Shown: positions 12,491-43,463 of the stretch, in pieces
Position numbering within the stretch: the first letter of the stretch is position 1
How the letters are laid out: each line of letters opens with the position of its first letter
Source of the DNA: a virus
IMG/VR virus record: IMGVR_UViG_3300044295_000287
Coordinates: 1 to 54,456 of that record
Length of the DNA stretch: 54,456 nt
Reading direction: 5' to 3' (one strand)
Made by a program: the position numbers and the translations under genes
Notes under the pieces: model-generated
What the model was told of the DNA's origin: nothing
Databases searched by the model: none
Seen by the model: only the letters and a program-made list of their open reading frames with translations

Positions 12491-12498
12491 TATTTATG
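12491..12498 (-). promoter_or_regulatory. Late promoter overlapping the stop codon of the giant gene
   Basis: The minus strand reads CATAAATA, one base from the T4 late consensus. The TAA at 12496-12494 is also the stop codon of the 4353-aa gene. RNA would start near 12485, 18 nt before the ATG at 12467. Confidence 0.5.
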
Positions 12499-15400: not shown

Positions 15401-18400
15401 ATACCCATGGTTAAGATTCCACATTCTATAATGCAAATCTGTTTCTAGTTTGTTAGCATCTGTGGATTTTTCTCCGCTGGGACTTCTAAATACAGATAAA
15501 TCACCGTCATAATAAGCAGGCAAATCAAAGTCAGAAGGATCTCCAGCCCAATCATCTAATCCGGTATAGTTGATTAAGTATTCACGTATTTTGGTATGAT
15601 AGGGTTTGGTTTCTGTAATGTAATCTAGTAAGAATGTTTGATTGTCTTTCAAATAAACACTTTGCTGTTCCAGCTTTCTAAAGTAGTGTTTGATGTCTAT
15701 TAAGCTGGTCTTAAACAGCCAATCCACATTCTTCTGCTCGCGTAGAATATATCGTATAGCCACAAAGAACAATTCGTTTACATGTTTTTCCAATTCATTT
15801 GTGAATAGATCGTTAAACAAAAGTTCAAACAAATTACGCAGCTCTTTACTGTAAGTTTGGCTTAGTGTACTGCCGTCATTTACTAAAGCTTGAGTATAAA
15901 GTTCATTGGTAAAGTTTACTGTACCGTTTTCTAAAACTAGGGTTTCAGTAATTAGATTACCAGTGTCATCGTTTACATATTTGATGATCTCGTATCTGCC
16001 GGATCCATTGTCCATGATCTTTACTGTGTCATTCAACACATATTGATTTTTAAGCAGATCATATTTGTTTTCTACAGTGTATTTAGGCAGCTTGGATGCA
16101 TCGTAACTGCTGGCCACATAGTCAACATATTGCCAGAATCTATTTAAATTGTAAGACTGATGACTGGTTACCGACCATCCCCCGCTGTAGGTATGGATTG
16201 ACCAACCGTTGTAATAGTTGCTGTCATTTTCCACCAGAACTTTATAACCAGGAGTTAATGTTGAGGTATTGATGTAACTTAGTTCAGTTAAGTTTGCCAC
16301 AGACTCGTCCCATGCCCCACTTACTGCACTAGGTGCAGGTTCAGCTATTTTGAGCCTATCTGTGTCATATATTTCTACCAGTTTGTATGAACTAAAGATC
16401 TCATTTACCTTTAACAGCATGACTTTCAATGCCGTCAAACGATTAACAAACATTCCCTGACGTGGCCTGTTCTCTATTCCGTATTTTAATGTACCATACA
16501 GATTAGTATCCGGCACTTCTTTACCCATGGCATCTTGCCCAGACAAACTATCAATTAATTTGCTCAGCAGGGAGTCTGCTGGGCGGCTGCGTGGGTTATT
16601 TTCCTGTACTAGGTCGTATTCTGCATGTATAACGTCGGTGTTAAGTTGTACATCATAGTCCACATGTAGCAAGGTATTGCTTGCATTTAGATATGTTGCT
16701 GTATTGTAGAGACCAATGCTGTTATTTGACAACACCACAGCATAGGCTAGTCCTTGAGCTTTGGGGTCTGTTATTAAATCTTCAACTGCAGAAATAGTAA
16801 GAGTTCTGCCACTATTAGTATTAACCGTAGTTTTCCTGCGTACCCAATAGTAGTAATTGGTCATTGTTAAACCAGTTGCTGCATCAGTTCTTGTTTCAGT
16901 TACTACTCGCGCATCACCAAATACTGGATAGCCGTCAAAGTTATTGCCATTCACAGCCACATATGAGCTAGGTAGCACTGAACTGCGTGTCCACTCACAG
17001 ATTTCAATTTCGCTGCCAGGGAAAGTATCGCCCCAATGTGTGCTGCGATACTGAAAATCTCCCTGCTCATAGTCTAAGTAACGAACTTTGTCGGTATTCC
17101 ACCATACCTTGCCCACTTGCATACTGCCCCAGATTTCATTGATACTAGCTGCGGTATCTCCATATACGGCAGGATCTAAATCTTCTACAAAATCTATTTG
17201 ACTTATAGCATTACCTGGTACTTTGACTTTGACTGGGTCGATTAGTTCTAGATCAACTAGTTTAGTATGTGTAACGCTGTCATATAGGAACAGCCTATTA
17301 ATTGCGTCGGTGTTGACCCGGGGCACAGCTTGTCCATCTACATACCATGCCGTGGATTTAGCTGCTGCGAACACATACATGGCACCATAATTACTGCCAA
17401 ACTTGTCGTCGCCTATTGCACCTACTGCGATATAACTGCCATTCATAGCCACACTGCTGCCAAATTTATTAGCTAACTGCAGATTGCCCGGTTCTAAATA
17501 ACGATCTAATATAAAAGAACCTGGAGAGCTGTCATTATCAATTCTATCGCTGACATATTCGTACACCAGCACTGCACCACTTTGACCAACTTGATCAACG
17601 AACTTTAAACTACCTAAATCAAATGTTGTAGTGTTGCCGTCAAAGCTAGTAGTTTCTATAGATGTTTCCAATGCACTGCCAATCGCCAACTTCAACGCAT
17701 CATCACTTATAGCCAAAACTGTACCAAACTGATCATCAGCGATAGGATTAGGATTACTTATAGTTTGAGTATTTTTAAATACGTCTAATCCAAGATCTGT
17801 TAGTGCAGTTCCTGATCCTGGCAATATTCTTAACTTGTCTGCCACTAAAACAATATCGCATTCAATATACAATTGATTATTAACTGCGCTGGCCCCAATA
17901 CCTGGAATAGCTTTATTGTTAATATCGTTGACCACGCTGGTTAAACTTGTGCCTGTAAACACAACGTCAAAGTCATTTATTCGTATACCATGACCTATGG
18001 TTACTGCTGGGTTAGTAACTGTTCCCGTTGCTTTACCATACAAACGTCCCATGTTGGTATATCTGTACACAGCACCAGCATTTTGTACGCTATTGGCGCT
18101 GTCGACTAAAGGTGCACCTACATAAGCGGTACAATCAAAAGGACATAATACGGTACTAGTGCCAAACTGCTGTTGCGACTGTGTGACGGGTGTGGTTAAT
18201 TTCTTTAACAATTGGAAATTGTTTGAAGCAATTTTTATCAAACTACCGTTACCGGGCGCTGTTGAGAATGTAACTGTTTTGTTACCGCTGCCAGTGTAAG
18301 TCTCGCCTGTTTGAACTACACCCTCAACCGTTGACAGTTTGATATTGGTATCAGGGCTGCGCAATAAAGTGTAAACAGTAGTGGATCCATCTCCCACAAA

Positions 18401-21400
18401 TGATTCTATGCTTCTATCATAAATGTAGACCGCACCGGCGTCTGTGCTACCAGTGTCATTAAATGGTGCACCAACTAAGACTTGTGCGCCATCGGTGCTA
18501 CAACTTACGCTGTAACCAAATTGATCGCCAGCACCTATATCAGCAGGTGTTATATACGTTCCAACCTGATAAAATGTTGTTGAGCTACGCCCCCAAATAT
18601 AAACTCGGTTAACACCGGGTGCGCCCACATATAGCCATAGGCCATCTTTACTAAAGCTTAAACTTTGTCCTAAATAAGAACCTGTGCTGGGTCCGGTCTT
18701 TACAGAACCCACCAAAGACACTGTTCCTAAACTAGTGTTGATCTTGTATATGTAAACAAATCCAGTGTTAGTGTCACTGGTTGGGCAACCTACTGCAAAA
18801 TAATCTGCATTGCTGCCGGTTAATGTCGTACCAAAGCCGGACAAGTTGGCTGTGCTTTGTGTAATAGATGTTAAATGTTGATATTGGCCATTACTATCTT
18901 TGATGTAAACAAAAACTTTACCGGTGCCTTCTGCTGGTGCACCCACAAGCATATAATCACCCGTGTTCACGAAGGCAACACTAGAACCGTAGTTTTGATT
19001 GGTGCTAGCATCCCAAGCATCTAACGTTTGATTTTTGCTCCAGATATCGCGTTTCTTAAATACTGCCCAGTCCACATAGTTTGGTCCCCAGTGATCTATG
19101 GCTGCGACATCATCAGTTTGCCAACCTTCTCTTGGGGTGTATGCAGCCCAGTCAGAGACTGTGTTGAAACGAACAGTACTTAACTTGTACAAGACACCAG
19201 TACCATCTAAACTGTTGAACCCAGAAAGATTAGAAGTTAATGTTGTATTAGCATCAACTTTGAAGGTTTTAAGATCTAGTATTTCTTTGACGCGATAGAT
19301 AAAGTTAAAGTTTATGTCAAAGTTCTTAATAACAATGTAATCGTTTATAGCAAGATTGTGCCTATCGCTTGTTTTTACTGCCAATGTGTTGTCTAACGCA
19401 TTAGTTATGTTAATAACTTGAACTTGCGTTTGTTCTGCTCTAAGTAGTGTCCAGTCCTTATTGTTCTTTTTTGCTACCCAAATTTTGTGCCCAGACCCAA
19501 TAGGATCTATTAATGTAGCGGGGCTATCGGCGTTGATATTAGTAAGATCAAATATGAAAGTATCGGCATGTGTTGTTTTCAAATAGCCAGCCGTAAGTAA
19601 TTCTTCCTCGACGTTTAACTTGTCCGTAGTTGTTAAAAACAGATTCTTGGTGTAATTCTTAGGAACAATTACAATCTTACCATCACCAACCGCATTTGGG
19701 CTGTAACCTGTTGTCCCAGATTCAGCAGTATCACCATCATTTAATAATGATAGGAAACTGGGATTAGCCGCAAAATTATTTTCTGTTAGAACAAGTTCCA
19801 ATACCTGAGTGCTGTCTATTGCACCAAATTCTCCAACTCTAATAGCCCAGTTCTCATAAGCATCTATCTCGGTAGTAAATCTATCAAACTTTGCGCCTAA
19901 CAACGCATTCAATGCGCTGTTGGTACCTTTTTCTCTAATATATCCTTGGTAAAACTTCACTTGGCTAATGTCATCAATGCCCAGCTCCGTTAAGTAACTG
20001 CGCGGTCTAAATCCTATTAAACCTTTACTGTATAGGTCTATACTACTTTCAAAGTTAGCATTTGTTATGTCATAAAAGCGTTCACTACGACCAGCTAGAT
20101 TGCTGAAATTAGGCAGCAATCCCGTCTTTATCTTATTTTTGTCTATTATCTGCCACTTATTAAACTCAAACACATTCTCTGCTGCTACATCCATTAGTGC
20201 AGTATAATATTGATTCTTATATTCTACCAACGCACCAGCTTTGTAGTCAACACCAGCAGTCCATGCGTCAACATTTGTACTGTTGTAAATAAATCCCGGC
20301 GCATAAACTGAACCGTCCCACTCTCTAGTTTTGTATCCTACCAGTTTGATGCGTAACTGTCTATTACCAGTTTCTGGTTCGTAAATAACGTCATTAAAAA
20401 TCGTCCTGTTATCGTAAACAATGGCATGTTCATATTGAACTAAATTCATTTCAACTAAGGCCAAATTGCTATTGACAGCATTTATTGTAAAACTGTTGTT
20501 GATGCGTACTACATTAAACTGATCATCACGTAGGTAGTTAAAGTTCTGATCTAACACACGGCTGGCGCCTACTTGACTGCCGTTTATTTCATCCACTACA
20601 TATCCGGGCCTAGTCAAAAATACTTTATTAGCCAATGGGTTTAATACTATTACGGTTTGACTATCCCAACCCTGTTGGCTCCAGTTTAAAAATTCTTGGG
20701 CCGATAGTATAAAGTCTCTATTTGCACCCAAGTCACCTTCGTATTCATTAAAACGTATGCCTTGCGAAACCAAATATCTGTTGTAGCTGATTAGGAAATC
20801 TACGACTTGTTGTTTGTTAACAAACTCTGTGCCATAAGGAATTGTAGTTTTTACTGCATCATAGTCGTTGTAAACCGTAGCAGTATTGCCCATAACCGTT
20901 ATTGTAGTGCTGTTGCTATTAGCCAGGCTAGGTATAATAGTAAAATAAGGTTCAGCTATATCGTAACCCTGTACTTTAAATCCAGTTCCTGTACGCTCTA
21001 TAATTACTGCACTATAAACAATTTTCAATAAGGGCACAGATTTTTTAATTACTATTGACTGATTCTCTTCCGGCACTAAAATACTTTTACCCACACTGTT
21101 AGGGCTGGCCTGTTCTGCAAAAGAATTCAACATTGCTGGGCCAGTATATCCAGCAAATGCATAGGTTAAATTTACTGTTAAATTGTCGATCAAAGATCTT
21201 ATTCTATCAACGCCATTGACACCTTGGCCGTTTAGTCTATCTATAATCCAATTAAGGTAACTGGCCTTGGATACAATTTCAGTATCTACAGTTTCACTAT
21301 TCAATACGTAGTCAGAAACCTGTAAACGTCGGTTCAAACCATTAAATGTGAATTCATTAATAGCGGCATCATACAAGTATTTGTCGTTATCAATAAACAG

Positions 21401-24400
21401 TCCAAAGTATTTTGCGGGTTTAGCAACGGACATAGCCGCTTGGCTAGCAAATGCAAATTCACTACTGCGACGCCATGCAGCTTCTACTGGGCCAATGTCA
21501 CCAAATGCCCAACTTATTTTTGTTTTTCTGCTGTCAAATGCTTTAACAAAAATTTCAACTGGCGGTCTTAATTCACCATATTCATCCGTGGGTATAATAT
21601 CTAGCAGATCTGGTCTTGCAAATCTTGCATCTATGCCAGCACGATCGCCAGTAAATATTCTGCCATCGCGCAAATCTTCCCACAAAACTAAGTTACCACT
21701 TGTATAGGGTGCGGCGCCATAACGCTGTTGCCACCAGCTGGGTTTTTGATCAAAACCCAACATTTCCCAAGGATGCGTATGTGGACGCATGGTATCATAG
21801 AAATGATCAAATATTGCGCGCCAACCACCCTGTAATAGTTCTCCAAACACACGATCACTTAGCTTCTTATAATTCCATGTAAAACTGTTGTTACTTAAGA
21901 ATGTGTCGTTGGTAGTGTAATCTAGCCCATATTTGCTGGCCCAGGCATTGAAAAATTGCGACAGTATATTGTTGTATTGATCTCTGCTGTAATCAGTTGT
22001 TCTGAAAGCACCAGATTTTACGTCAAATACTGATAACTTGTTTAAATTCCACTGTACTTTTAAATTGTTATAGATACGTTTTTCAAATTCTAACAAAATG
22101 TCATCGCGGAAATCACCAAATGCAGGTATAATACTACCATCATGACCTTCAATGCATAGAGTTTCCGTAACAAATGTGTCATCGGTGTATAATCTTGGGC
22201 TCTTGCTGGGCCATAGTCCTAGTTTAGTTGGAGTTTCTGGTATATATGAGCCGTTAGTTGTATTATATTCGACAATTTTGAGGACATCATACGTTGCAAT
22301 AGTACCGGCCGTCAATGCTATCGCAGGTCTAATTGTTAAAAACGTATAGTCAATTCCATGTACTAATTGATTGTCATTAACATAAACACAAACTCCACGC
22401 CGACTGGGCTGTGTTAAGTCAAATTTAGTATATAGGTCATATTCTAACTGCGCATCATTTTCAATTGTGATCGTCGTTACATTCTCAACGCTGTCCTCAC
22501 CATAAGCCAGCATATCACTATAATACCATGCAAAGTCCTTGGTTTTAACCGCGTTTATTGTGCCCAATATTTCATCCAACATTTGTGGCACAGTTAAAGA
22601 TTTTGTCAGGTCCAATTTTAATGCTTGGTCCAGTACCTTATTCTTAAAGCGGGTATATTCTCTAGCAGCATTGTTTATGGCGTCAATTAGGTTAGCGTCC
22701 GGATGCGTCATGAATAGCGCAGCCGGTACAACACTTGCACTGTGTTGCAGTAAGGTACCACCTATGTCTTTAATTTTAGGCAAGTCACGTAAATTACTGC
22801 TGCCAAGATACGAACCTGTTACTTGTTTACTGTTTTGATAGATTTGTCCAATATGTCTACGTAGTTGTCCCAGTGTAAATGTTGATGCCACTGCATTTAA
22901 CGCATTTACTTCTAAGTTTTTAGGAATTTCGTAATAGGCATTTGGTATTGTTTGTGTACTTGCGTAAACAAAAATATCTACTTTGTCGTTCAAACTAAGA
23001 GCACTGGTTAGAATTATATAAGCTCTGTCATGAATAGTTTCAAATACATAATTATCTGAGTTAACAAACTTGTTGTTGACAAAAAGTTTAAAGTTGTTTA
23101 CATAATTACTGGGATCGCCAAAACTATACACTAAAAATTCTGTTTGTCCTTGTTCAGCTAGATATTCCAAATGCTGGAACTGTTTACTGTCCTCAAAGAC
23201 CGGTGTCCAAACTGTTTTTTGCGTGTAGTTGGTCAAAGAATTGTTTACATGTAGTTTGCCATCAAATAGTTGTATGGTTTTTACTGTATTATCTAAGGTA
23301 TACGCAAAACTTTCTGCGTCAAGATTGTTATCAAAAACTATGTCACCAATATTTGCAATAGACTTATAAGTTAGTGCCAATCCTAAATTAATGTCGTTTT
23401 TGCCATTACCAGGCCTATAGCTGAATATCTTATTGCCGGCAAATGTGGTTGAAGGATATTTACTAGTATCACTGTAGCTTATTCCGCTGTCGTCAAATAC
23501 ATCAAACAATGGCGACTGATTGACTCCTAACTTTTGTTGTGCCGTGTGCCAGGCCGTGCCATCGAACCAAACCATTTTTCCTTGATAGTTTGTGCCTTGA
23601 CGTACTAATAGCCCTTCTTTTGCTAATACTTGAGCATGTTCAACTAGGGTTAAATGTGTAATAGAGCTGCCATCACCACTGGGATCAACAATGTTTACCT
23701 TATACACTTTGTTTCTTACATTTTCATCAGTCTCGGCCGCAAAAACTACGAACATACCATTGGTCAATGTTATGCCATCTATGGCGTATCCACTGCTGCC
23801 CTCAACATGACTAAATGCATCCGTAGTTACCGTATCAAATGCATTTATCGCTTGTTTGAATACACTGCCACTATTGTAAAGTTGAACATCATAGTTAAAT
23901 TCTATAATGGGTCGTTTTGCATTAGCATTTTTATCAATAGTTGGCGTGTAATTATTATATTCGGCTACTGCATTAATAACATCAATGTGGAACCAACGGT
24001 TGGTTCTGCTCCATGAGTTTCTATCACGGCTAGCTCTATTAATGGTAAAGTAATCTGGTTGTGTGGGTCCTAAACTAACATTAGGATCCCAGGGCTGGCT
24101 ATCCCATTTATTACTATCCCAGGGCACCGCAGCACTGGGAATCCAAGTTTCCGGCACAATTAATTCAGAGACTGGAACCAAACGTATTGCATCTCCCACG
24201 CCCTCCACATAATATTCTTTTAGTTGATAACTGGGTGGAGTTGCTGTAGTGTCAAATTGCACACGTAATCCGTTTGTGAACACAACATTATTTGGGCTAG
24301 TGTAATTCTTTTGCCCAACGATGTCAGTATCTACATTGATAGGCGTATCAATTTGCGTATCAATTAGTTTGATAAGACCCAACATGTTTGTGTTGGTGCT

Positions 24401-25555
24401 GTCCTGATAGTACAGTGTATCTATATTTGCTGTAACTGGTGGCAATAGTTCAAGTTGTAGATGCACCGGTTCTTTATAGAAATATCTATAACCATAATCA
24501 TTTCCGCCCAAAACTTTAAATTTATAGTTTGCACCAACTAGAATATATTCCTCTACACGCAATGTTGGCGCCGAGCCTGTTGTATCTACTCTAACAATGA
24601 AAGTGTTTGCTCTTTTTGCCGTTGGTATAATTGAATCGGTATAAGGATCATACCAATCAGCATCATTGCTACTGGGGTTAACAAATACGATTACTTTGTT
24701 ATTGAGATCTTTTACTCCATCTATACCGCCATAGGTATTAATGAAACTGTCAAAATTTGCGCCCTGGATTTGTGCATAATTTAGTGTAGTTGCATAGTTA
24801 ACACTGTCCTGCTCTGGCAAATCCAGTATCCAGTCCTGTGCACTACGTTGCGGCACTACAAATGTCACGGTGCCATTATCTGCGCCATTGTTAGTAACTC
24901 CGTATACTTCTCTTGCGCTAATATTAGTTTGGAATGGGTATTCGCCCGCAGTTCCAGGTGCAGCTTGAATATAAAACTGCGATGTTTGGTTAACTGTAAA
25001 AGTGTATGTACCGCCTCGTGCCAATACCAACAATGGATTTAGCTGGACATAGTCGGTGATTTTATAAGCATCATCCACAGAATCTCTAGTTATGGTATAC
25101 TGTGCTGCTGTGGCGATGTCACCTGTGCTTACTACAACAGGATCCAAACCATTTGGTAACCAATAATATTGATTGTAGTTTACTAACTTATCAAAATCAA
25201 ATAAACCATCATAACTGTAGTATTTGTTTGCGAATAATTTATTATGATCAATATTATCACCGCCAGCAAAATTGACAGCATTGACCATGTCATTGTAGTT
25301 GGCTATGAATGCATCCTTGTTGGGTTCTTTAACCACAACACTGGGCTCTAATTGATATTGCTGTCTATTAAGCGCAGGCTCTATTACATAATTGTCTGTA
25401 GGAATAAATGCCGGACTAGTTTTTTTACCTACATACCCATTCAAACGTGCAAAATTAGGTTCAGTCGTTAACTGATCCAACGTTGCGTTTAAAAACTTCT
25501 TGTTGTGGTCTGTTTGAAAGACTTTTGGTAGCAAATTTAATGTTCTAATTGGCAT
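12494..25555 (-). CDS. Giant baseplate wedge-type structural protein with seven-bladed FG-GAP propeller
   Basis: 4353 aa, far longer than T4 gp7 (1032 aa), whose place after gp6 it occupies. Residues about 2185-2730 hold seven FG-GAP/integrin-like blades, each with an FGxS...VGAP core (YGSSVAFVNTGDYMLVGAP, FGYSVSCSTDGAQVLVGAPF, FGSSVAMNGSYIAVGAIGDD). Between blades, and again at about 3550-4100, are copies of a GDGSTTxYxF...VYVNGxxxxxxxDY module typical of phage tail proteins. The N-terminus (LNLLPKVFQTDHNKKFLNAT) and a WYQQR-like region (WWQQRYGAAPYT) suggest a conserved wedge scaffold. It starts 2 nt after the stop of gp6, so both are on one transcript. The function as a wedge or arm protein is inferred from order; the propeller is read directly. 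Confidence 0.8.
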   Translation of the reverse strand: MPIRTLNLLPKVFQTDHNKKFLNATLDQLTTEPNFARLNGYVGKKTSPAFIPTDNYVIEPALNRQQYQLEPSVVVKEPNKDAFIANYNDMVNAVNFAGGDNIDHNKLFANKYYSYDGLFDFDKLVNYNQYYWLPNGLDPVVVSTGDIATAAQYTITRDSVDDAYKITDYVQLNPLLVLARGGTYTFTVNQTSQFYIQAAPGTAGEYPFQTNISAREVYGVTNNGADNGTVTFVVPQRSAQDWILDLPEQDSVNYATTLNYAQIQGANFDSFINTYGGIDGVKDLNNKVIVFVNPSSNDADWYDPYTDSIIPTAKRANTFIVRVDTTGSAPTLRVEEYILVGANYKFKVLGGNDYGYRYFYKEPVHLQLELLPPVTANIDTLYYQDSTNTNMLGLIKLIDTQIDTPINVDTDIVGQKNYTSPNNVVFTNGLRVQFDTTATPPSYQLKEYYVEGVGDAIRLVPVSELIVPETWIPSAAVPWDSNKWDSQPWDPNVSLGPTQPDYFTINRASRDRNSWSRTNRWFHIDVINAVAEYNNYTPTIDKNANAKRPIIEFNYDVQLYNSGSVFKQAINAFDTVTTDAFSHVEGSSGYAIDGITLTNGMFVVFAAETDENVRNKVYKVNIVDPSGDGSSITHLTLVEHAQVLAKEGLLVRQGTNYQGKMVWFDGTAWHTAQQKLGVNQSPLFDVFDDSGISYSDTSKYPSTTFAGNKIFSYRPGNGKNDINLGLALTYKSIANIGDIVFDNNLDAESFAYTLDNTVKTIQLFDGKLHVNNSLTNYTQKTVWTPVFEDSKQFQHLEYLAEQGQTEFLVYSFGDPSNYVNNFKLFVNNKFVNSDNYVFETIHDRAYIILTSALSLNDKVDIFVYASTQTIPNAYYEIPKNLEVNALNAVASTFTLGQLRRHIGQIYQNSKQVTGSYLGSSNLRDLPKIKDIGGTLLQHSASVVPAALFMTHPDANLIDAINNAAREYTRFKNKVLDQALKLDLTKSLTVPQMLDEILGTINAVKTKDFAWYYSDMLAYGEDSVENVTTITIENDAQLEYDLYTKFDLTQPSRRGVCVYVNDNQLVHGIDYTFLTIRPAIALTAGTIATYDVLKIVEYNTTNGSYIPETPTKLGLWPSKSPRLYTDDTFVTETLCIEGHDGSIIPAFGDFRDDILLEFEKRIYNNLKVQWNLNKLSVFDVKSGAFRTTDYSRDQYNNILSQFFNAWASKYGLDYTTNDTFLSNNSFTWNYKKLSDRVFGELLQGGWRAIFDHFYDTMRPHTHPWEMLGFDQKPSWWQQRYGAAPYTSGNLVLWEDLRDGRIFTGDRAGIDARFARPDLLDIIPTDEYGELRPPVEIFVKAFDSRKTKISWAFGDIGPVEAAWRRSSEFAFASQAAMSVAKPAKYFGLFIDNDKYLYDAAINEFTFNGLNRRLQVSDYVLNSETVDTEIVSKASYLNWIIDRLNGQGVNGVDRIRSLIDNLTVNLTYAFAGYTGPAMLNSFAEQASPNSVGKSILVPEENQSIVIKKSVPLLKIVYSAVIIERTGTGFKVQGYDIAEPYFTIIPSLANSNSTTITVMGNTATVYNDYDAVKTTIPYGTEFVNKQQVVDFLISYNRYLVSQGIRFNEYEGDLGANRDFILSAQEFLNWSQQGWDSQTVIVLNPLANKVFLTRPGYVVDEINGSQVGASRVLDQNFNYLRDDQFNVVRINNSFTINAVNSNLALVEMNLVQYEHAIVYDNRTIFNDVIYEPETGNRQLRIKLVGYKTREWDGSVYAPGFIYNSTNVDAWTAGVDYKAGALVEYKNQYYTALMDVAAENVFEFNKWQIIDKNKIKTGLLPNFSNLAGRSERFYDITNANFESSIDLYSKGLIGFRPRSYLTELGIDDISQVKFYQGYIREKGTNSALNALLGAKFDRFTTEIDAYENWAIRVGEFGAIDSTQVLELVLTENNFAANPSFLSLLNDGDTAESGTTGYSPNAVGDGKIVIVPKNYTKNLFLTTTDKLNVEEELLTAGYLKTTHADTFIFDLTNINADSPATLIDPIGSGHKIWVAKKNNKDWTLLRAEQTQVQVINITNALDNTLAVKTSDRHNLAINDYIVIKNFDINFNFIYRVKEILDLKTFKVDANTTLTSNLSGFNSLDGTGVLYKLSTVRFNTVSDWAAYTPREGWQTDDVAAIDHWGPNYVDWAVFKKRDIWSKNQTLDAWDASTNQNYGSSVAFVNTGDYMLVGAPAEGTGKVFVYIKDSNGQYQHLTSITQSTANLSGFGTTLTGSNADYFAVGCPTSDTNTGFVYIYKINTSLGTVSLVGSVKTGPSTGSYLGQSLSFSKDGLWLYVGAPGVNRVYIWGRSSTTFYQVGTYITPADIGAGDQFGYSVSCSTDGAQVLVGAPFNDTGSTDAGAVYIYDRSIESFVGDGSTTVYTLLRSPDTNIKLSTVEGVVQTGETYTGSGNKTVTFSTAPGNGSLIKIASNNFQLLKKLTTPVTQSQQQFGTSTVLCPFDCTAYVGAPLVDSANSVQNAGAVYRYTNMGRLYGKATGTVTNPAVTIGHGIRINDFDVVFTGTSLTSVVNDINNKAIPGIGASAVNNQLYIECDIVLVADKLRILPGSGTALTDLGLDVFKNTQTISNPNPIADDQFGTVLAISDDALKLAIGSALETSIETTSFDGNTTTFDLGSLKFVDQVGQSGAVLVYEYVSDRIDNDSSPGSFILDRYLEPGNLQLANKFGSSVAMNGSYIAVGAIGDDKFGSNYGAMYVFAAAKSTAWYVDGQAVPRVNTDAINRLFLYDSVTHTKLVDLELIDPVKVKVPGNAISQIDFVEDLDPAVYGDTAASINEIWGSMQVGKVWWNTDKVRYLDYEQGDFQYRSTHWGDTFPGSEIEICEWTRSSVLPSSYVAVNGNNFDGYPVFGDARVVTETRTDAATGLTMTNYYYWVRRKTTVNTNSGRTLTISAVEDLITDPKAQGLAYAVVLSNNSIGLYNTATYLNASNTLLHVDYDVQLNTDVIHAEYDLVQENNPRSRPADSLLSKLIDSLSGQDAMGKEVPDTNLYGTLKYGIENRPRQGMFVNRLTALKVMLLKVNEIFSSYKLVEIYDTDRLKIAEPAPSAVSGAWDESVANLTELSYINTSTLTPGYKVLVENDSNYYNGWSIHTYSGGWSVTSHQSYNLNRFWQYVDYVASSYDASKLPKYTVENKYDLLKNQYVLNDTVKIMDNGSGRYEIIKYVNDDTGNLITETLVLENGTVNFTNELYTQALVNDGSTLSQTYSKELRNLFELLFNDLFTNELEKHVNELFFVAIRYILREQKNVDWLFKTSLIDIKHYFRKLEQQSVYLKDNQTFLLDYITETKPYHTKIREYLINYTGLDDWAGDPSDFDLPAYYDGDLSVFRSPSGEKSTDANKLETDLHYRMWNLNHGYGVDSVMIENAGVNYLVAPDINIIAATGDTGSGAKAYALVSGGKLREIIVTDPGKNYTKTPTVEVVANDSGTSGKLYAQLGNKTIRKWNTTIRFDRYTYGTAVLTWAASTYYLQGQYIAHNHVLYKVEVADGSSAGFTSSTTFDTDNLVKISNQDLAALMDGDFGSANDRITAYYQPRDGMPGQDLAQVQTGIDYPGVIVDAQNFTDLPTNYPTIASGLDDTVITSQFTDTDLGTRAEDILVDGKAFIDVYSSHAPQELIPGRMYDTLNMQVHTVPRTDYNYIIKTWAAYSYYAKGDYIKYGTQLYQALFAYTTGAAFSIYGPDGSTIALTARDPLTAGAGPEITNLSFTADGTTTQFSFREVGHSDDVLFVYTKNRGLQKENTDFTVNYNDKSINFAIAPLANETVFISVQSHGGNFLLYDKTYQILAATTQIILPTYDNLVQDLLVFVNGQRVFEGTASNQFTHAVSNNLYNIQFNTALVSGDYVHVYVYSQPQTYREIHNTYQSFDTLPSVSYPTDYTITLDRPLKTSGPYHANIIVLVNNNRLRTPENTYLTGDGSTITFTPNYVADINGATVDGNDIEVYVNGQRKTFGADYTLTALDGSTLRSVIFNTAPAMGDVVVLSETTGAQFSMIDAQTILIAASVALTVNSKVRIISYADHDTSLIKTKVYSGAGAATISIPHGFDTIGFDSEDSGFDSSSSLIITTNKYPLQYTHTNTNYVLVYQNGQFLQPNTDWDLADSGSQVEIHRNISASDIIIITEFTENSQGGLTSFRIFKNLLDQTNYYAINYSDSTKLSADLGIFDTEISVQNALALPAPSTAYAKPGVIFINGERIAYWERDTVNNKLGRIIRATGGTGAPQVHAAGSDLVSAGKNQEITSLYDNSIVAKWQPLTQFKQDTYVLFEGSIYQVTTTFTSGASFTTANLTYRAQFRDMVWYDMNNKTLSLVEADTTQAVFLRQKAGFIPT

Positions 25556-37777: not shown

Positions 37778-38791
37778 ATGAATTTATTTAAACGTGCTAT
37801 TGTTTTTACAGATCTGCATCTTGGCTTAAAATCTAACAGTAAACTTCACAATGAAGATTGCCTAGCATTTATAAACTGGGCCTGCGAGCTGGGGCGCCAA
37901 AACGATTGTGATACTTGTTTATTCCTGGGCGATTACCACAATAATCGCGCCAGTATCAATATCATGACTCTTAATTATAGCTTACGCTGTTTAGAGTTAA
38001 TGAGCCAAAGTTTTAATCGTGTGTTTTTTATTCCTGGCAACCACGATCTCTACTATAGAGACAAGCGCGACATTCAAAGTGTTGAGTGGGCTAGACATAT
38101 TGACAATATCACTATCGTAAATGACTTCTTTAAGGAAGGCGACGTCAGTATTGTACCTTGGCTAGTGGGTGATGACCACAAACGACTGCAGAAGATTAAT
38201 GCTCAGTATATGTTTGGTCACTTTGAGCTGCCACACTTTTACATGAATGCAATGGTACAGATGCCAGAGCATGGTGAAATACGCCGTGAACACCTTGGGC
38301 ATATAGGGCACGTATTCAGCGGGCATTTCCATAAACGACAATCAGAACGCAACATTACGTATATTGGTAATTGCTTCCCACATAATTACGCCGATGCAGG
38401 CGATGCTGAACGTGGTGTCATGATACTGCCCTGGGGCGAAGATCCAGTATTTCATAGTTGGCCCGATCAACCCACTTATTTGGTGGCTAAACTCAGTGAT
38501 ATCGTAGCTGATCCCAGTGCGATACTCAAACCACGGCAGCATGTGCGTATCAATTTAGACGTTGATCTCAGCTATGAAGAAGCTAACTATCTCAAAGAAA
38601 CATTTGTGGATCAGTTTCAACTGCGTGAGATTACATTAATCCCGCCTAAGAAAACAGAATTATCAGACATGACTGGCGCTGCCGAGATCACGTTTGAAAG
38701 TGTGGATCAAATTGTCACAAATCAAATTACTAGTATTGAAAGCGAACACTTTGATAAAAAGATACTGCTAGATATCTATAGGAACCTATAA
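37778..38791 (+). CDS. gp47: Recombination nuclease subunit gp47 (SbcD/Mre11-like phosphoesterase)
   Basis: 337 aa (T4 gp47 is 339 aa). All metallophosphoesterase motifs are present: FTDLHLG (Asp12, His14), GDYHNNR (Asp52), GNHD (87-90), GHFEL (His148) and GHFHKR (His183, His185). These bind the two metal ions. With gp46 it forms the Mre11/Rad50-like complex that resects DNA ends for recombination-dependent replication and degrades host DNA. The stop overlaps the gp46 ATG (TAATG), so the two are translationally coupled. The partner gp46 is split by an intein. Confidence 0.95.
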   Translation: MNLFKRAIVFTDLHLGLKSNSKLHNEDCLAFINWACELGRQNDCDTCLFLGDYHNNRASINIMTLNYSLRCLELMSQSFNRVFFIPGNHDLYYRDKRDIQSVEWARHIDNITIVNDFFKEGDVSIVPWLVGDDHKRLQKINAQYMFGHFELPHFYMNAMVQMPEHGEIRREHLGHIGHVFSGHFHKRQSERNITYIGNCFPHNYADAGDAERGVMILPWGEDPVFHSWPDQPTYLVAKLSDIVADPSAILKPRQHVRINLDVDLSYEEANYLKETFVDQFQLREITLIPPKKTELSDMTGAAEITFESVDQIVTNQITSIESEHFDKKILLDIYRNL

Positions 38792-39060
38792 TGTTCAAAG
38801 TTAAGAATCTCACTGTAAAGAACTTCCTAAGTGTGGGTAATGTCACACAAGCTATTGACTTCAATCGCCAGGACCTAACACTGGTGCTGGGGGAAAACTT
38901 AGATCTAGGCGGTGATGATGCTGGTGCTCGCAATGGCACGGGTAAATGTGTTGGGATAAATACTTTAGTTAAAGTTCGTAACACCGAAACCGGTGAAGTT
39001 ATGGAACTTACTATAGGAGAATTATATAATGCCGCGCTGGAACAAAGAACTCAAAGTTAA
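38791..39060 (+). CDS. gp46: gp46 N-terminal fragment fused to a split-intein N part
   Basis: 89 aa. Residues 1-52 are the start of a Rad50/SbcC-like ATPase (VKNLTVKNFLSVGNVTQAID, then VLGENLDLGGDDAGARNGTG and Lys52). They break off inside the Walker A loop. Residue 53 is Cys, which starts an intein N part of 37 aa and ends at a TAA stop. The stop is in the same frame as the C-terminal fragment 1 kb downstream. It can give working gp46 only by joining with the product of 40105-42108. The end overlaps the start of the endonuclease gene by 32 nt. Confidence 0.92.
   Translation: MFKVKNLTVKNFLSVGNVTQAIDFNRQDLTLVLGENLDLGGDDAGARNGTGKCVGINTLVKVRNTETGEVMELTIGELYNAALEQRTQS
38947..39057 (+). other. 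Split intein, N-terminal part (37 aa)
   Basis: Begins with the nucleophile Cys1 directly after the Lys of gp46 Walker A. CVGINTLVKV is a typical intein block A, followed by TGEVMELTIGELYN. The fragment ends after 37 residues at a stop codon, before the intein block B would be expected. The matching rest is at 40105-40473. The size and sequence style resemble atypically split inteins such as AceL-TerL (short N part, long C part). Confidence 0.9.
39015..39020 (+). promoter_or_regulatory. Ribosome site of the endonuclease gene inside intein codons
   Basis: AGGAGA lies 8 nt before the ATG at 39029 and is made by the codons for Ile-Gly-Glu of the intein N part. It supports independent translation of the endonuclease. 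Confidence 0.7.
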
Positions 39061-40129
39061 TTGTCAAGAAGTAATGGAACAAACTATCAAAAATTTAAAT
39101 CCTGATCTGTATCAAAAATTGTTAGTCGACTTGTTGAGTATCAAAATTGAAAACAACAAGAAAATTATTGAGCAATTCATTCGTCAAAAATTAAACCTAA
39201 CAACCAATGCTGCGCCACGCACAAAATCTTATTGGTTATCACGAGGCTGGACCTATGAGGAGTCGCATATAAAGGCCAAAAAACATAAATCAGGGAATCC
39301 GTGTAGTGTTTATAGCAGAAATTTTTGGCTTAACAAGATCAATCCCATAACCGGAAAAAACTATACCGAGGACGAAGCTGATCAAGAAAGAAATAGTCGA
39401 AGGCCGATTAGGAAAGAGTATTGGATCAACAAAGGATTTTCTCTTGAAGAAGCTATTAAATTAGCTAAAGAAACGAAAAGGTCCAATAATAAATTAGGTG
39501 CCGAAAAAAAATCTAGATCAAACTTACATCGAGTTTCATCACCTCGATGTATTGAATACTATACTGCTAGGGGATATTCCGCAGAAGAGTCAGCACTCAT
39601 GTTGTCAAACTCGCAAAAATATTTTTCAAAAGAAATATGCGTACAAAAATATGGAGAAAATGAGGGGATGAAGATTTGGCAAGATCGACAAAATAAATGG
39701 CAGGGCACCTTAAATTCCAAATCCGCAGAAGAAAAGTCTAGAATTAATCGTTTAAAGTTAACTAAAGGAATTACTGTTTCAAAAGCAGAAAAATTAATAC
39801 TGAAAGCAATAAAAGAAACAATACCAGATGCCATACATCAATTTACTTTACATGAATCAGGTAAAAAACAATACATCTATGATATTATGGCCAATAATAA
39901 AATCATAGAATATAATGGTGATTTTTGGCACTCTAACCCTTCTATATATTCGCCAGATTTTATAAATCCAAGAACTAAAGTTAAATCTATTGATAAATGG
40001 GCATCAGATGCTGTAAAATTACAATGTGCTCGTGATCAAGGATATGAAGTTTTAATTATCTGGGAACATGATTTCAAGAAAAATCAAAAGGAAACAATTA
40101 AAAAATGCATTCAATTTCTGACATCGTAA
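39029..40129 (+). CDS. Vsr-like homing endonuclease between split-intein halves
   Basis: 366 aa, in a different frame from gp46 and overlapping both intein parts (32 and 25 nt). Residues about 65-200 contain repeated short modules (SYWLSRGWTYEESHIKA, EYWINKGFSLEEAIKLA, EYYTARGYSAEESALML), probably DNA-binding. Then KYGENEGMKIWQDRQNKWQ. The C-terminal 110 residues are a Vsr/PD-(D/E)XK-like nuclease: KAEKLILKAIKE, YIYDI, KIIEYNGDFWHSNP and CARDQGYEVLIIWEHDF. This enzyme type is known from fractured phage genes where it sits between split-intein halves. It should cut gp46 alleles without the insertion and so spread the element. No intein motifs occur in it. Confidence 0.88.
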   Translation: MPRWNKELKVNCQEVMEQTIKNLNPDLYQKLLVDLLSIKIENNKKIIEQFIRQKLNLTTNAAPRTKSYWLSRGWTYEESHIKAKKHKSGNPCSVYSRNFWLNKINPITGKNYTEDEADQERNSRRPIRKEYWINKGFSLEEAIKLAKETKRSNNKLGAEKKSRSNLHRVSSPRCIEYYTARGYSAEESALMLSNSQKYFSKEICVQKYGENEGMKIWQDRQNKWQGTLNSKSAEEKSRINRLKLTKGITVSKAEKLILKAIKETIPDAIHQFTLHESGKKQYIYDIMANNKIIEYNGDFWHSNPSIYSPDFINPRTKVKSIDKWASDAVKLQCARDQGYEVLIIWEHDFKKNQKETIKKCIQFLTS

Positions 40130-40473
40130 ATAGAAAATTTATCAACTCTGTAAATCTAAAAAATTTAGAGATTGAAACAGATTCTGGATGGAGTCCCATT
40201 ACGTCCATACATAAAACAATTCCATATCATGTATGGACGGTCAAAACCGAATCAGGGAAAAATCTCAGGTGCGCGGACGATCATATTTTATTTAATGATG
40301 AATTCAACGAAATTTTTGTAAAAGACATTAGGCTTAATTCATTTATTCAAACCATTGATGGGTTAGAGAAAGTATCAGACATACAAGCTTCTGAACAAGA
40401 AGAAAATATGTTTGACATTGCCGTTAATTCTGATGAACACAGATACTATACCAATGGGATTCTGTCGCACAAT
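40105..40473 (+). other. Split intein, C-terminal part (123 aa)
   Basis: Contains the block B region on this half (LRCADDHILF, with the His), blocks F/G at the end (FDIAVNSDEHRYYTNGILSH and the last Asn123), and is followed by Thr as the +1 residue. Ending in HN before Ser/Thr/Cys is required for intein splicing. Because block B is on the C half, the split is at an unusual early position. Confidence 0.9.
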
Positions 40474-42108
40474 ACTACTATTGCCAATGCTCTTAGCTAT
40501 GGGTTATTTGGCAATGCACTAACCAATATCAAAAAAGACAATCTTATTAATAAGACCAACGGCAAAAACATGCTGGTCACAGTGGATTTTGAGCATGGCG
40601 GCAACCACTATCGCATTGAGCGCGGTCGTAAACCCACACTGCTGAAGTTTTATGTAAATGACGTTGAGCGAGTAGATGCTGCAAATAACGAAGCTGACGA
40701 AAGTCAGGGCGACAGCCGCGAAACACAACAGGAAATAGAACGTATATTAAGTATCAGCCCTGATATGTTTAAGCATATCGTGGCGCTAAACACTTATACT
40801 GAGCCGTTCCTAAGTCTTAGAGCAGCTGACCAGCGCAGTATCATTGAGCAACTGCTGGGTATTACACTGCTAAGTGAAAAAGCTGATCATCTCAAAGAGC
40901 AAATCAAAGATACCAAAGATCTCATTACCCAGGAACAATACAAGATTAAGGCCACAGAAGAAGCCAATGCGAGAATCAAGGAACAAATTGAATCACTAGA
41001 GCGTAGACAGCGGCTGTGGCAGAATAAACACGAAGAAGACAAGGCCAAACTGTCTAGATCCATAGGCGATCTAGTAAACATAGACATTGAGCAAGAATTA
41101 CAACTACATCGTGACCTTGATGCTTATAACGAACGCAAGAAGCAAATTGATGAATGCAAAAAGCTGATTAAACAGTCTGCAGATGATAAAGCTAAGTTAG
41201 AAAAAGCTCAGGAAAAGCTGCGCAAAGAGATCGCATCACTGGATAATCACGAATGCTATGCTTGTGGACAAACTATACATGATGGCAAGCAGGAAGAAAT
41301 CCGCAGAGACAAACAAGAGTCACTGACGGAAGCAGAAACGCAGTGGAACCGGTCTGATGCAGAGGAAAAAGAGCATAACGCATCACTAAAACAGCTAGGA
41401 GCCCTGGGCGCCATGCCCAAAGTGTTTTATGATACGCTGGCGGATGCATTGGATCATAAAAACCGGTTGGATGGACTAGTTAGGGATCTTGAAAACAAAG
41501 AAAACGAAACTGATCCCTACGTCGAGCAAATCGACGAGATGCAGAACAAAGCCGTGATTGAGATTAACTATGAAACCATCAATCAATTGGAAATGTTACG
41601 TGAGCATCAGGAGTTTTTGCTTAAATTGCTGACCAACAAAGATAGCTTTGTACGTAAACGCATCATTGATCAAAACTTAGGCTATTTGAATACACGTCTA
41701 AGCCAGTATTTGGAACGTATTGGGTTGCCACATACTGTAACCTTTATGAATGACCTCACAGTTGAGATCACAGAACTGGGCCGTGAGCTGGACTTTGATA
41801 ATTTATCGAGGGGCGAAAGAACACGACTGATACTGAGCCTTAGCTGGGCATTTCGTGATGTTTGGGAAAGTTTATATCAGCCCATTAATCTCATGTTTAT
41901 TGACGAGCTAATTGACAGCGGTCTGGATAGTAGCGGCGTAGATAATGCACTAGGTATGCTTAAACGCATGAGTCGTGAGCTCAATAAAAGTGTTTGGTTA
42001 GTAAGTCACAAGGATGAATTAGCAGGTAGGGTAAACAATATACTACGAGTCATCAAAGAAAATGGCTTTACCACGTATGAAACCAGTACGGAAATAGCAA
42101 ATATTTAG
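40105..42108 (+). CDS. gp46: gp46 C-terminal fragment preceded by a split-intein C part
   Basis: 667 aa. Residues 1-123 are the intein C part. From Thr124 (40474) the Rad50/SbcC-like ATPase resumes: TTIANALSYGLFG completes Walker A. A long coiled coil follows, with a CYAC zinc hook at about residue 384, then the signature LSRGERTR (about 567) and Walker B LMFIDELIDSGLD (about 595). Spliced gp46 would be 596 aa, close to T4 gp46 (560). A TAA lies just 4 nt upstream of the ATG in the same frame, so this is a true separate start; AAAAGGAAA is about 11 nt before it. gp46 powers the gp47 nuclease. Confidence 0.93.
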   Translation: MHSISDIVNRKFINSVNLKNLEIETDSGWSPITSIHKTIPYHVWTVKTESGKNLRCADDHILFNDEFNEIFVKDIRLNSFIQTIDGLEKVSDIQASEQEENMFDIAVNSDEHRYYTNGILSHNTTIANALSYGLFGNALTNIKKDNLINKTNGKNMLVTVDFEHGGNHYRIERGRKPTLLKFYVNDVERVDAANNEADESQGDSRETQQEIERILSISPDMFKHIVALNTYTEPFLSLRAADQRSIIEQLLGITLLSEKADHLKEQIKDTKDLITQEQYKIKATEEANARIKEQIESLERRQRLWQNKHEEDKAKLSRSIGDLVNIDIEQELQLHRDLDAYNERKKQIDECKKLIKQSADDKAKLEKAQEKLRKEIASLDNHECYACGQTIHDGKQEEIRRDKQESLTEAETQWNRSDAEEKEHNASLKQLGALGAMPKVFYDTLADALDHKNRLDGLVRDLENKENETDPYVEQIDEMQNKAVIEINYETINQLEMLREHQEFLLKLLTNKDSFVRKRIIDQNLGYLNTRLSQYLERIGLPHTVTFMNDLTVEITELGRELDFDNLSRGERTRLILSLSWAFRDVWESLYQPINLMFIDELIDSGLDSSGVDNALGMLKRMSRELNKSVWLVSHKDELAGRVNNILRVIKENGFTTYETSTEIANI

Positions 42109-42398: not shown

Positions 42399-43463
42399 AT
42401 GGATTTAGGACATTGGCAATATCCAAAAAAATTTGACGTTAATGAATGGGTTGGGTTTATATATAGGATAATTGATACTGAAACTTCTCGAGAGTACATT
42501 GGGAAAAAATTATTTTTTAGTAAGAGAAGCAAACGTCTCAAAAGTAGGAAAAACAAAGTTTGGACCACCAAAGAATCTGATTGGAAAACATATACTAGTT
42601 CTTCCGAAACGATTAATAAATTGATTAAAGAGCATGGAAAATCTCGATTCGTTTTTATTATTGAATCACTTCATAAATCAAAAGCGGCATTGACCTATGC
42701 GGAGGTTGAAAAAATGATCGTGGAAGATGCATTAAGAACAAAATTGCCCAATGGCGAGCGGCGTTATTACAATGCTATTATTCCTCCAATTAAGTTTTTG
42801 CCGCCGCACGAAGAAAGTGACGAGGAGGCATCAAGACTGTGGACTTTGATTAAGGACAGATACCCAAATGAAAACTTTCTTTGGGAGCATGGTATGCTTG
42901 AGGAAGAGAAGGAAAATTACAGAGCAAAATTTAGGTTGGGAGAAAATAATTCAACAAAAAGAAATAAAACCGATGAAGAATATGAGGCCTGGTTGAATCA
43001 GAATTATAGAGGGGTTAACAATCCAATGTATGGTCGAAAAGGTATGTTGAGTCCAAGATATGGAACACATCCTTTTGAAAAACTAACCGAAGAAGAATTA
43101 ATTGTAGCAAAATCAAAAATGGCACATAAAGGCAAAGATAATGGTATGTTTGGTCGGCACCCATTCGCAAATTTAACTGAGGAAGAATTGGCAGTGGTAA
43201 AAGAAAAAATGCGTCACGAAGGCAAAGATAATGGCATGTATGGCAAACCTTGTTATTACAAAATGACCGAAGAGCAAAAGGCACAGTGGAAACTAAATAT
43301 AGGCAAAAGTAAAAAAGGCAAAATATTAACAGAAGAAACTAAACAAAAAATGCGTAAGCCCAAGGGCCCACAAATTCAGGTTACATGCCCGCATTGTGGC
43401 AAAATGGGCGGTACATCAAATATGGCACGATATCATTTAGACAATTGTAAGCTCAAATCTTAA
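42399..43463 (+). CDS. GIY-YIG-type homing endonuclease with NUMOD3 repeats and zinc finger
   Basis: 354 aa. The N-terminal domain (about 15-130) has a GIY-YIG-like pattern: GFIYRIID, then EYIGKKLFF, and a conserved EVEKMIVEDAL with Glu. Residues about 205-310 hold repeated NUMOD3-type DNA-binding motifs (NNPMYGRKGM, KDNGMFGRHPF, KDNGMYGKPCY, KSKKGKILTEETKQKM). The C-terminus has a Cys2-His-Cys-type finger (CPHCGKMGGTSNMARYHLDN, then Cys). It is free-standing, not within a recognisable intron. Expression appears limited to late times by the hairpin/promoter upstream. A structured non-coding region follows directly. Confidence 0.83.
   Translation: MDLGHWQYPKKFDVNEWVGFIYRIIDTETSREYIGKKLFFSKRSKRLKSRKNKVWTTKESDWKTYTSSSETINKLIKEHGKSRFVFIIESLHKSKAALTYAEVEKMIVEDALRTKLPNGERRYYNAIIPPIKFLPPHEESDEEASRLWTLIKDRYPNENFLWEHGMLEEEKENYRAKFRLGENNSTKRNKTDEEYEAWLNQNYRGVNNPMYGRKGMLSPRYGTHPFEKLTEEELIVAKSKMAHKGKDNGMFGRHPFANLTEEELAVVKEKMRHEGKDNGMYGKPCYYKMTEEQKAQWKLNIGKSKKGKILTEETKQKMRKPKGPQIQVTCPHCGKMGGTSNMARYHLDNCKLKS

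Follow-up and report, generated by a model that had tools for sequence, protein, structure and literature searches.

A gp46 recombination ATPase gene fractured at its Walker A loop by an atypically split intein that very probably trans-splices

The window analyzed here is a stretch of viral DNA of 54,456 nucleotides (positions 1 to 54,456 of IMG/VR record IMGVR_UViG_3300044295_000287) in which gp46, the phage Rad50, is encoded by two separate open reading frames (ORFs). Very probably this is a fractured gene, in which an intein of the Hint type, split in the atypical (S2) manner, lies between the lysine and the threonine of the Walker A motif and rejoins the two gp46 halves after translation by trans-splicing, resulting in a protein of 596 aa. 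Sequence comparison supports this interpretation through the anatomy of the locus, the conservation of splice-site residues, empty sites in relatives, the persistence of the split in loci without an endonuclease gene and signs of purifying selection.

Organization of the gp46 locus

All components are encoded on the plus strand. The gp46-N ORF (38791-39060, 89 aa) shares its first base with the last base of the stop codon of gp47 (37778-38791), the Mre11/SbcD partner, which was identified by phrog_100 (E 2.3e-55) and PF00149. It consists of a 52-aa N-extein (38791-38946) ending in the Walker A sequence GARNGTGK (Lys52), recognized by phrog_77 and a match to gp46 of Pseudomonas phage MIJ3, followed by a 37-aa intein N-part (IntN, 38947-39057) with Cys1 as its first residue, assigned from the conservation of Cys1 and a structural model of the sister locus L085, and by a stop codon (39058-39060). 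The gp46-C ORF (40105-42108, 667 aa) starts with a 123-aa intein C-part (IntC, 40105-40473), which ends in ILSHN (Asn123) and was assigned through IMG/VR relatives, TIGR01443 and a phmmer search of the PDB. It continues into a 544-aa C-extein (40474-42105; phrog_77, E 1.8e-86) that begins TTIANALSYGLFG, its first residue being Thr+1 of the Walker A motif. Between the intein halves lies a free-standing homing endonuclease ORF of 366 aa (39029-40129; AlphaFold2 (AF2) and Foldseek results, phrog_13076 with E 2.7e-4), which is the arrangement of a fractured gene. This ORF is read in a different frame from gp46-N, starts inside IntN (32-nt overlap) with AGGAG 9 nt ahead of its ATG, and ends inside IntC, whose own ATG sits 25 nt inside the end of the endonuclease ORF. 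A first-pass annotation of the window had noted that a stop codon ends the first part and that the second part has its own start and ribosome site. Stop and start hold; the ribosome site amounts to a Shine-Dalgarno (SD)-like AGGA within the endonuclease gene, 12 nt upstream of the IntC ATG, a long spacing.

The two exteins complement each other closely. Positions 295-333 of the phrog_77 (SbcC-like) profile are covered by gp46-N and positions 334-956 by gp46-C, so that the two matches abut exactly, and the intact gp46 of MIJ3, which has no insert, aligns to both gp46-N (58% over 59 aa) and gp46-C (49% over 543 aa). A CxxC hook, an LSRGE signature and a Walker B motif were identified by eye in gp46-C; judged by sequence, the motifs of a gp46/Rad50/SbcC ABC-type ATPase are spread over both halves. 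The ORF coordinates agree to the residue with the originally proposed break after Lys52 (ARNGTGK) and resumption 1.5 kb further on, and the proposed 596-aa product, carrying the motifs of both halves, equals 52 plus 544 aa. An Rfam search for an intron returned a single sub-threshold snoRNA match, located before gp46 and outside the insert, and a promoter and terminator scan gave no excess over shuffled sequence.

Empty sites in gp46 relatives

A scan with the gp46 C-half yielded at least 600 relatives, the best 80 of which (60-65% identical) were used to count empty sites. In 76 of these 80, N- and C-extein are joined seamlessly and in frame, the join reading RNGTGK/TTII in 74 (the slash marks the junction). 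Three of the remaining four are occupied, one being the window's own phage, and the last is ended by a contig edge. Based on these alignments, the insertion is exact, with the empty allele differing by the insert alone. Across 68 distinct empty sequences, the DNA at the Walker A junction ranks with the best conserved parts of the 360-nt region analyzed, though it is not unique in this. Cis inteins were at one point suspected in the gp46 genes of BF, GAP32, Hallingskeid and Vibrio 2.275.O (714-719 codons), in which some of the matches start ahead of residue 124; in translation, Walker A is uninterrupted and no intein is seen.

Recurrence of the split intein in other phages and hosts

One further IMG/VR record (3300048694_001005, 180,565 bp, referred to as L083) is identical to the window across the 12,369 nt compared, including the entire element, and another (3300047566_000366, 8,542 bp, L002) is identical from mid-endonuclease onward and stops short of the N half. 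These assemblies may not be independent of that of the window. The stronger argument against an assembly artefact, a concern raised in the first-pass annotation, is the same split layout in 53 other distinct loci.

These loci were collected from IMG/VR. A scan with the C-part gave 32 loci among 34 candidate stretches, and an IntC profile scan gave 455 of 513 stretches, the best 80 of which were used. Together with L003 and L004 from the gp46 C-half scan, the 32 loci of the first scan and 79 of the 80 of the second (L088 being in both) make up 113 loci. Loci differing at no more than 6 positions over the final 330 nt of the intein were grouped, and retaining one per group left 56 distinct loci, with the window's phage represented by its truncated copy L082. 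It should be noted that this sample was drawn by similarity to the window intein from the best-scoring matches and therefore says nothing on more distant inteins. The 56 loci comprise 53 split inteins, one cis intein (L184) and two loci, L185 and L082, whose examined copy shows no N half. L082 is the window's phage truncated by a contig end, and the second copy of this phage, L083, is split.

According to the best C-extein match, the hosts are gp46 of the window's type (20 loci), a second type of gp46 (14), TerL (20), a DnaB-type helicase (1) and a Clp ATPase (1). PHROG or Pfam searches confirmed this for the window, the second-type gp46 C-halves of L107, L162, L165 and L175, TerL of L104, the helicase and the Clp protein; the remaining hosts were assigned by tblastn. 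A metagenome search for gp46 with the same junction, as suggested earlier, thus returned 34 distinct gp46 loci of two lineages. The second type is T4-like, the C-extein of L162 being 62.8% identical to the annotated gp46 of Synechococcus phage S-SM2, and the C-extein of L107 is 53.1% identical to a Stenotrophomonas phage protein annotated as recombination endonuclease.

The residues flanking both splice sites are strongly conserved. As first described, the insert pieces of the window start with Cys and end in SHN followed by Thr, and this extends to the whole sample: the N junction reads GK/C in all 54 distinct loci with a visible N half, and the C end reads HN in all 56 (SHN in 55, HHN in one), with Thr (39) or Ser (17) at position +1. 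Within the sample, the intein family occupies only the Walker A Lys/Thr or Lys/Ser bond. IntN length ranges from 31 to 60 aa over the 53 split loci, 37 aa being most frequent.

Some hosts other than gp46 show individual features. In L113 (2586-7107), a Clp-type AAA+ ATPase is fractured at its second Walker A motif (GVGK/C ... SHN/T) with a 501-aa endonuclease ORF in between. A DnaB-type replicative helicase is fractured at NVGK/C ... SHN/S in L109 (5135-7062), with about 100 nt and no endonuclease gene between the ORFs. The 462-kb uncultured phage LR756500.1 (L124, 1978-5566) has a fractured TerL with an endonuclease ORF and a divergent IntC ending SSQ/T (Gln, no His-Asn). In Salicola phage SCTP-2, the TerL ORF (L122, 3004-3897) starts with an IntC of the same family and the two preceding genes lie on the opposite strand; judging from this arrangement, the gene may be fractured over a distance.

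Retention of the split in loci lacking the endonuclease gene

In all 53 split loci the N frame ends before or at the C part. A strict endonuclease match is found between the two ORFs in 32 of them, and N stop and C part are about 1 kb apart where the endonuclease gene is present. Thirteen loci have no room for it, the distance from N stop to C part being only -8 to 261 nt, too short for a full endonuclease gene, and in the other eight the 387-1235 nt between the ORFs give no strict match. Remnants of the endonuclease are retained in L106 and L111. In L085 the halves are divided by one in-frame TAA and 3 nt, and in L090 by an in-frame TAA and 54 nt in which the terminal part of the endonuclease gene, including AGGA, is still present; both are one in-frame TAA away from a cis gene. 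True cis relatives, namely TerL of Klebsiella phage Magnus (annotated intein), TerL of Vibrio phage VPALA and L184, are plain continuous ORFs.

The overlap of the three window ORFs at both ends, by 32 and 25 nt, would also fit one continuous precursor that is produced via two programmed ribosomal frameshifts, or by stop read-through, and spliced in cis. The single in-frame TAA between the halves of L085 and L090 and the absence of AGGA before the C part in 12 of the 23 loci inspected would fit it as well. However, distance and frame between N stop and C part vary widely (-8, 3, 32, 46, 54, 76, 88, 90 ... about 1000 nt), and retention of the split without an endonuclease gene at such shifting distances and frames argues against programmed frameshifting. 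The endonuclease start is, moreover, preceded by GGAG or GGGG at 6-9 nt in 11 of the 12 loci inspected (L094 lacks it, and the start of L086 reads ATT), and the continuous ORFs of the genuine cis relatives likewise speak against such a precursor, which we consider very improbable. Trans-splicing, the route to unbroken gp46 favored from the outset, is supported by the comparative evidence as well as by the structural evidence described below.

Two additional loci illustrate the range of layouts. L149 contains, near 3600-3860, a split second-type gp46 whose two ORFs share about 8 nt and which has no endonuclease gene. The cis TerL intein of L184 (1-2400) carries in its linker what looks by eye like a zinc-finger-like endonuclease relic in another frame, and on sequence grounds this intein has apparently returned from the split to the cis state.

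Intein fold and split type

The intein of L085 was used as AlphaFold2 query, with its in-frame TAA read as Gln and 38 further rows in the alignment. The resulting read-through model has a mean pLDDT of 91.7 and a pTM of 0.83. VidaL (6vgv) is its top Foldseek match in the PDB (E 9.4e-9, TM 0.84 by target length), and further matches include many inteins, among them the atypically split consensus intein Cat; a Hint fold can be confidently predicted from this model. The IntN-homologous part forms beta1-beta2-alpha1, and the sole stretch of at least three residues under pLDDT 50, residues 41-49, is located at the split, shortly after the helix formed by residues 23-37. A phmmer search of the PDB with the IntC of the window returned the Cat, gp41-1 and VidaL inteins. 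No Pfam match was obtained with IntN alone, because 37 aa are too short to score.

With two ORFs, a short IntN and a cut after alpha-1, the intein belongs to the atypical (S2) split type as PMC13014065 defines it. The split intein initially proposed is retained and its type refined, the usual split of about 100/35 being replaced by one with a short N part. The accessible text of PMC13014065 gives natural atypically split inteins N parts of 15-37 aa and places the cut of AceL-TerL and GOS-TerL after helix alpha-1; with an IntN of 37 aa and a cut after the first helix, the window intein fits the description found there.

The associated endonuclease

The endonuclease encoded between the intein halves has a helical N-terminal region with YW..RG[WY]..EEA-like repeats, recognized by eye, and a C-domain at about residues 250-366, for which the AF2 model is confident (overall pTM 0.36). 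Foldseek matched the model to the catalytic domain of I-Bth0305I (3r3p, prob 0.99, TM 0.63 by target, E 0.18) and to Vsr (1vsr, prob 0.97), with whole-chain E values of 0.16-0.18 for 3r3p and 1vsr. A profile search of the PDB returned only Vsr and one Vsr-like protein (E 0.9-1.5), and a single-sequence search of the PDB gave no match, so that the fold comparison provided the better lead. Residues E294, G297, H301, P304 and E346 are invariant across 15 endonuclease homologues in an alignment of homologues alone. In the model, the C-domain resembles a Vsr/EDxHD-like domain of the I-Bth0305I kind. The enzyme presumably targets the conserved Walker A DNA of other phages in which the site is empty.

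Purifying selection and mobility of the element

N-extein dN/dS is 0.04-0.05 in pairs with finite dS, and C-extein pN is 0.17-0.34 versus a saturated pS of about 0.8 in pairs without L089. In the pair L089/L091, dN/dS is lowest for IntC (0.055), followed by the endonuclease (0.15) and IntN (0.33). Sequence divergence of this kind indicates purifying selection on exteins and intein. Decay of gp46 to a pseudogene with a dead element would be consistent with an in-frame TAG in L094 (position 6538) and a frameshift in L089 (about 6900), both in the C-extein downstream of the intein, which may represent sequencing error, recoding or decay. Yet in the intein and in either extein amino-acid changes are far rarer than synonymous ones, and the splice residues are retained at all visible junctions. 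Nine intein-bearing contigs (63-289 kb, fragments; eight with the gp46 element) have just one gp46-like match apiece, and SbcC/SbcD orthologues are called practically universally conserved in the accessible part of a jumbo-phage survey (PMC7824862). Decay of gp46 is extremely improbable.

Movement of the insert was assessed in 12 pairs by scaling synonymous divergence to codon-shuffled saturation (50 shuffles), a baseline chosen because codon usage might also make the insert look little diverged at synonymous sites. In L089/L091, gp47 (0.94) and N-extein (1.05) are saturated, and IntN (0.49), endonuclease (0.61) and IntC (0.59) are each below all 50 shuffles. The insert, being less diverged at synonymous sites than its flanks, is younger in common descent, as homing predicts, and for this one pair recent horizontal movement is evident from the sequences compared. 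In L088/L089, IntN (0.53) and IntC (0.50) are low and the endonuclease (0.86) hardly so; other pairs are near saturation or low in IntN alone (22 codons, overlapping the region of the endonuclease ribosome site). On a tree of 92 C-exteins (85 rows after dropping identical ones; L089 and L094 excluded), the occupied state takes 5 changes, 2 of them forced by well-supported branches, and thus gain or loss occurred more than once. The window gp46 is weakly supported on this tree, so no claim is made as to where the element was acquired. The IntC tree has few supported branches; on this uncertain topology at least 9 changes of host are needed for 5 hosts, versus a shuffled mean of 27.6.

Proposed mechanism and weighing of the evidence

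We propose that two gp46 proteins are made separately, the first ending in IntN and the second beginning with IntC. Following established intein chemistry, the intein halves would associate and undergo an acyl shift at Cys1, attack by Thr+1 and cyclization of Asn123, ligating Lys52 to Thr53 to give 596-aa gp46. The endonuclease would cut empty Walker A sites in other phages, and repair of the break would copy in the whole element. As neither unspliced half has a whole ATP site, gp46, and with it gp46/47, should be inactive until spliced. Because of this missing ATP site, splicing could be pictured as an on-switch for gp46/47 that times or limits end resection, with the split being kept for control even after loss of the endonuclease and the site being more than a handy conserved target; we regard this as rather unlikely, and any use of splicing by the phage as a control on gp46 is speculation.

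A further alternative is that the halves never splice and gp46 functions as two chains, with the intein parts serving as a docking clamp. Split intein halves are known to bind each other tightly unaided, which would suit such a role. The break, however, falls within the Walker A loop, so that a Hint domain of 160 aa would come between the catalytic Lys and Thr, and Cys1 and the final Asn are invariant although they are unneeded for docking alone. We give a non-splicing clamp hardly any credence compared with trans-splicing.

Several observations weigh against the overall interpretation. The intein model is that of the sister locus L085 and was built as one chain. TIGR01443 scores 15.8 bits for IntC alone (cut-off 15.6) but 14.1 on the whole C-half, PF14890 is below cut-off, with 32.7 bits versus 35.8 even for the L085 read-through, and the intein N-terminal score of TIGR01445 is below cut-off as well. 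In intein block B, Ala replaces the Thr of the TxxH motif. For the endonuclease, 3r3p and 1vsr rank 4-5, with three unrelated low-probability matches above them and E values >0.1. AGGA precedes the C part in 11 of the 23 loci inspected, corresponding to 11 of 15 gp46 loci and none of 8 with other hosts. All insert segments are clearly less diverged than the flanks in just one of the 12 pairs, and the C-extein is broken in 2 of the 15 distinct gp46 loci of the first set (L094 and L089).

Neighboring genes

Directly after gp46, the window encodes a 354-aa GIY-YIG SegE-like endonuclease (42399-43463; PF19835, E 2.9e-30), a second mobile-type gene. A single ORF of 4353 aa occupies 12494-25555 on the minus strand, and several genes around it match tail or baseplate families.

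Significance and comparison with known systems

Fractured genes, atypical splits and the K/T insertion site are already known; gp46 as a split-intein host was not found in print. The accessible portions of the open-licence PMC literature on inteins with gp46, Rad50 or SbcC contained no report of an intein in gp46. When 50,697 phage records were queried with the intein-gp46 junction, at least 80% of the query was covered in 2; the one of these two among the matches listed, LR756500.1, proved to be TerL, and the other matches listed (of 329 records) covered one side only or were TerL inteins or the SCTP-2 intein. With 34 distinct environmental phage loci from two lineages, which include the gp46 of T4-like cyanophages, gp46 joins the proteins that seem to reach their unbroken form only by trans-splicing. 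The element resides in an ATPase whose role in recombination-dependent repair is to open DNA ends, a step that homing by the endonuclease may need. T4 intron homing relies on recombination functions, "possibly gp46, gp47" in the accessible text of PMC2988022, which makes gp46 a pointed choice of host gene. A homing element inside a repair ATPase on which homing may itself depend is a testable situation. Further, a single family displays the cis state, the split with and without an endonuclease gene and, in L184, an apparent return to cis, and it provides dozens of new split inteins with a short IntN and Walker A flanks that may be of use as protein-ligation tools.

In 2009, Dassa and colleagues reportedly described fractured genes with split inteins and free-standing genes for homing endonucleases of the Vsr/EDxHD type from environmental phages, in hosts said to include gp41 helicase, NrdA/NrdJ, IMPDH, TerL and similar. 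As in the window, an enzyme gene is reportedly interrupted there by a split intein and an endonuclease gene; the host in the window is gp46. The split PolB intein of MIJ3 (PMC6892783, accessible part) also combines a split with an endonuclease gene, but is found in DNA polymerase B and is accompanied by an HNH endonuclease; MIJ3 is itself among the isolates with the nearest intact gp46.

Among the atypically split inteins VidaL, AceL-TerL, GOS-TerL and PolB16, as covered in the accessible parts of PMC13014065 and PMC10189870, the 37-aa IntN of the window stands at the top of the 15-37 aa range. VidaL is the best structural match to the L085 intein, with 22% identity in the structural alignment, but is split after beta-2, unlike the window intein. 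AceL-TerL and GOS-TerL have a short IntN and a split after alpha-1 (PMC13014065, same part), as in the L085 model. The host genes of this group differ from that of the window.

The Walker A site is shared with further inteins. Insertion at the K/T bond of P-loops is called a "classic" intein site in the accessible text of PMC5050341, which places mycobacteriophage TerL1-a and similar P-loop inteins, all cis, in other hosts. Gp46 of Salicola phage SCTP-2 (L115, 2352-5117, annotated as hypothetical protein) has an intein at the same Walker A K/T bond, but this is a different intein from that of the window, being cis, having Ala as its first residue and containing a large inner domain. TerL cis mini-inteins of Ackermannviridae, such as that of Klebsiella phage Magnus (annotated, 159 aa), are among the nearest sequence relatives in 323 phage records (46% for the window IntC, 33% over full length for the L085 intein). 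They use the same GK/C ... SHN/T site; unlike the intein of the window, they are contiguous, have no endonuclease and interrupt a terminase. Taken by sequence, inteins of the window's family are common at this same K/[T/S] bond, being located there in TerL, DnaB-type helicase and Clp ATPase as well as in gp46.

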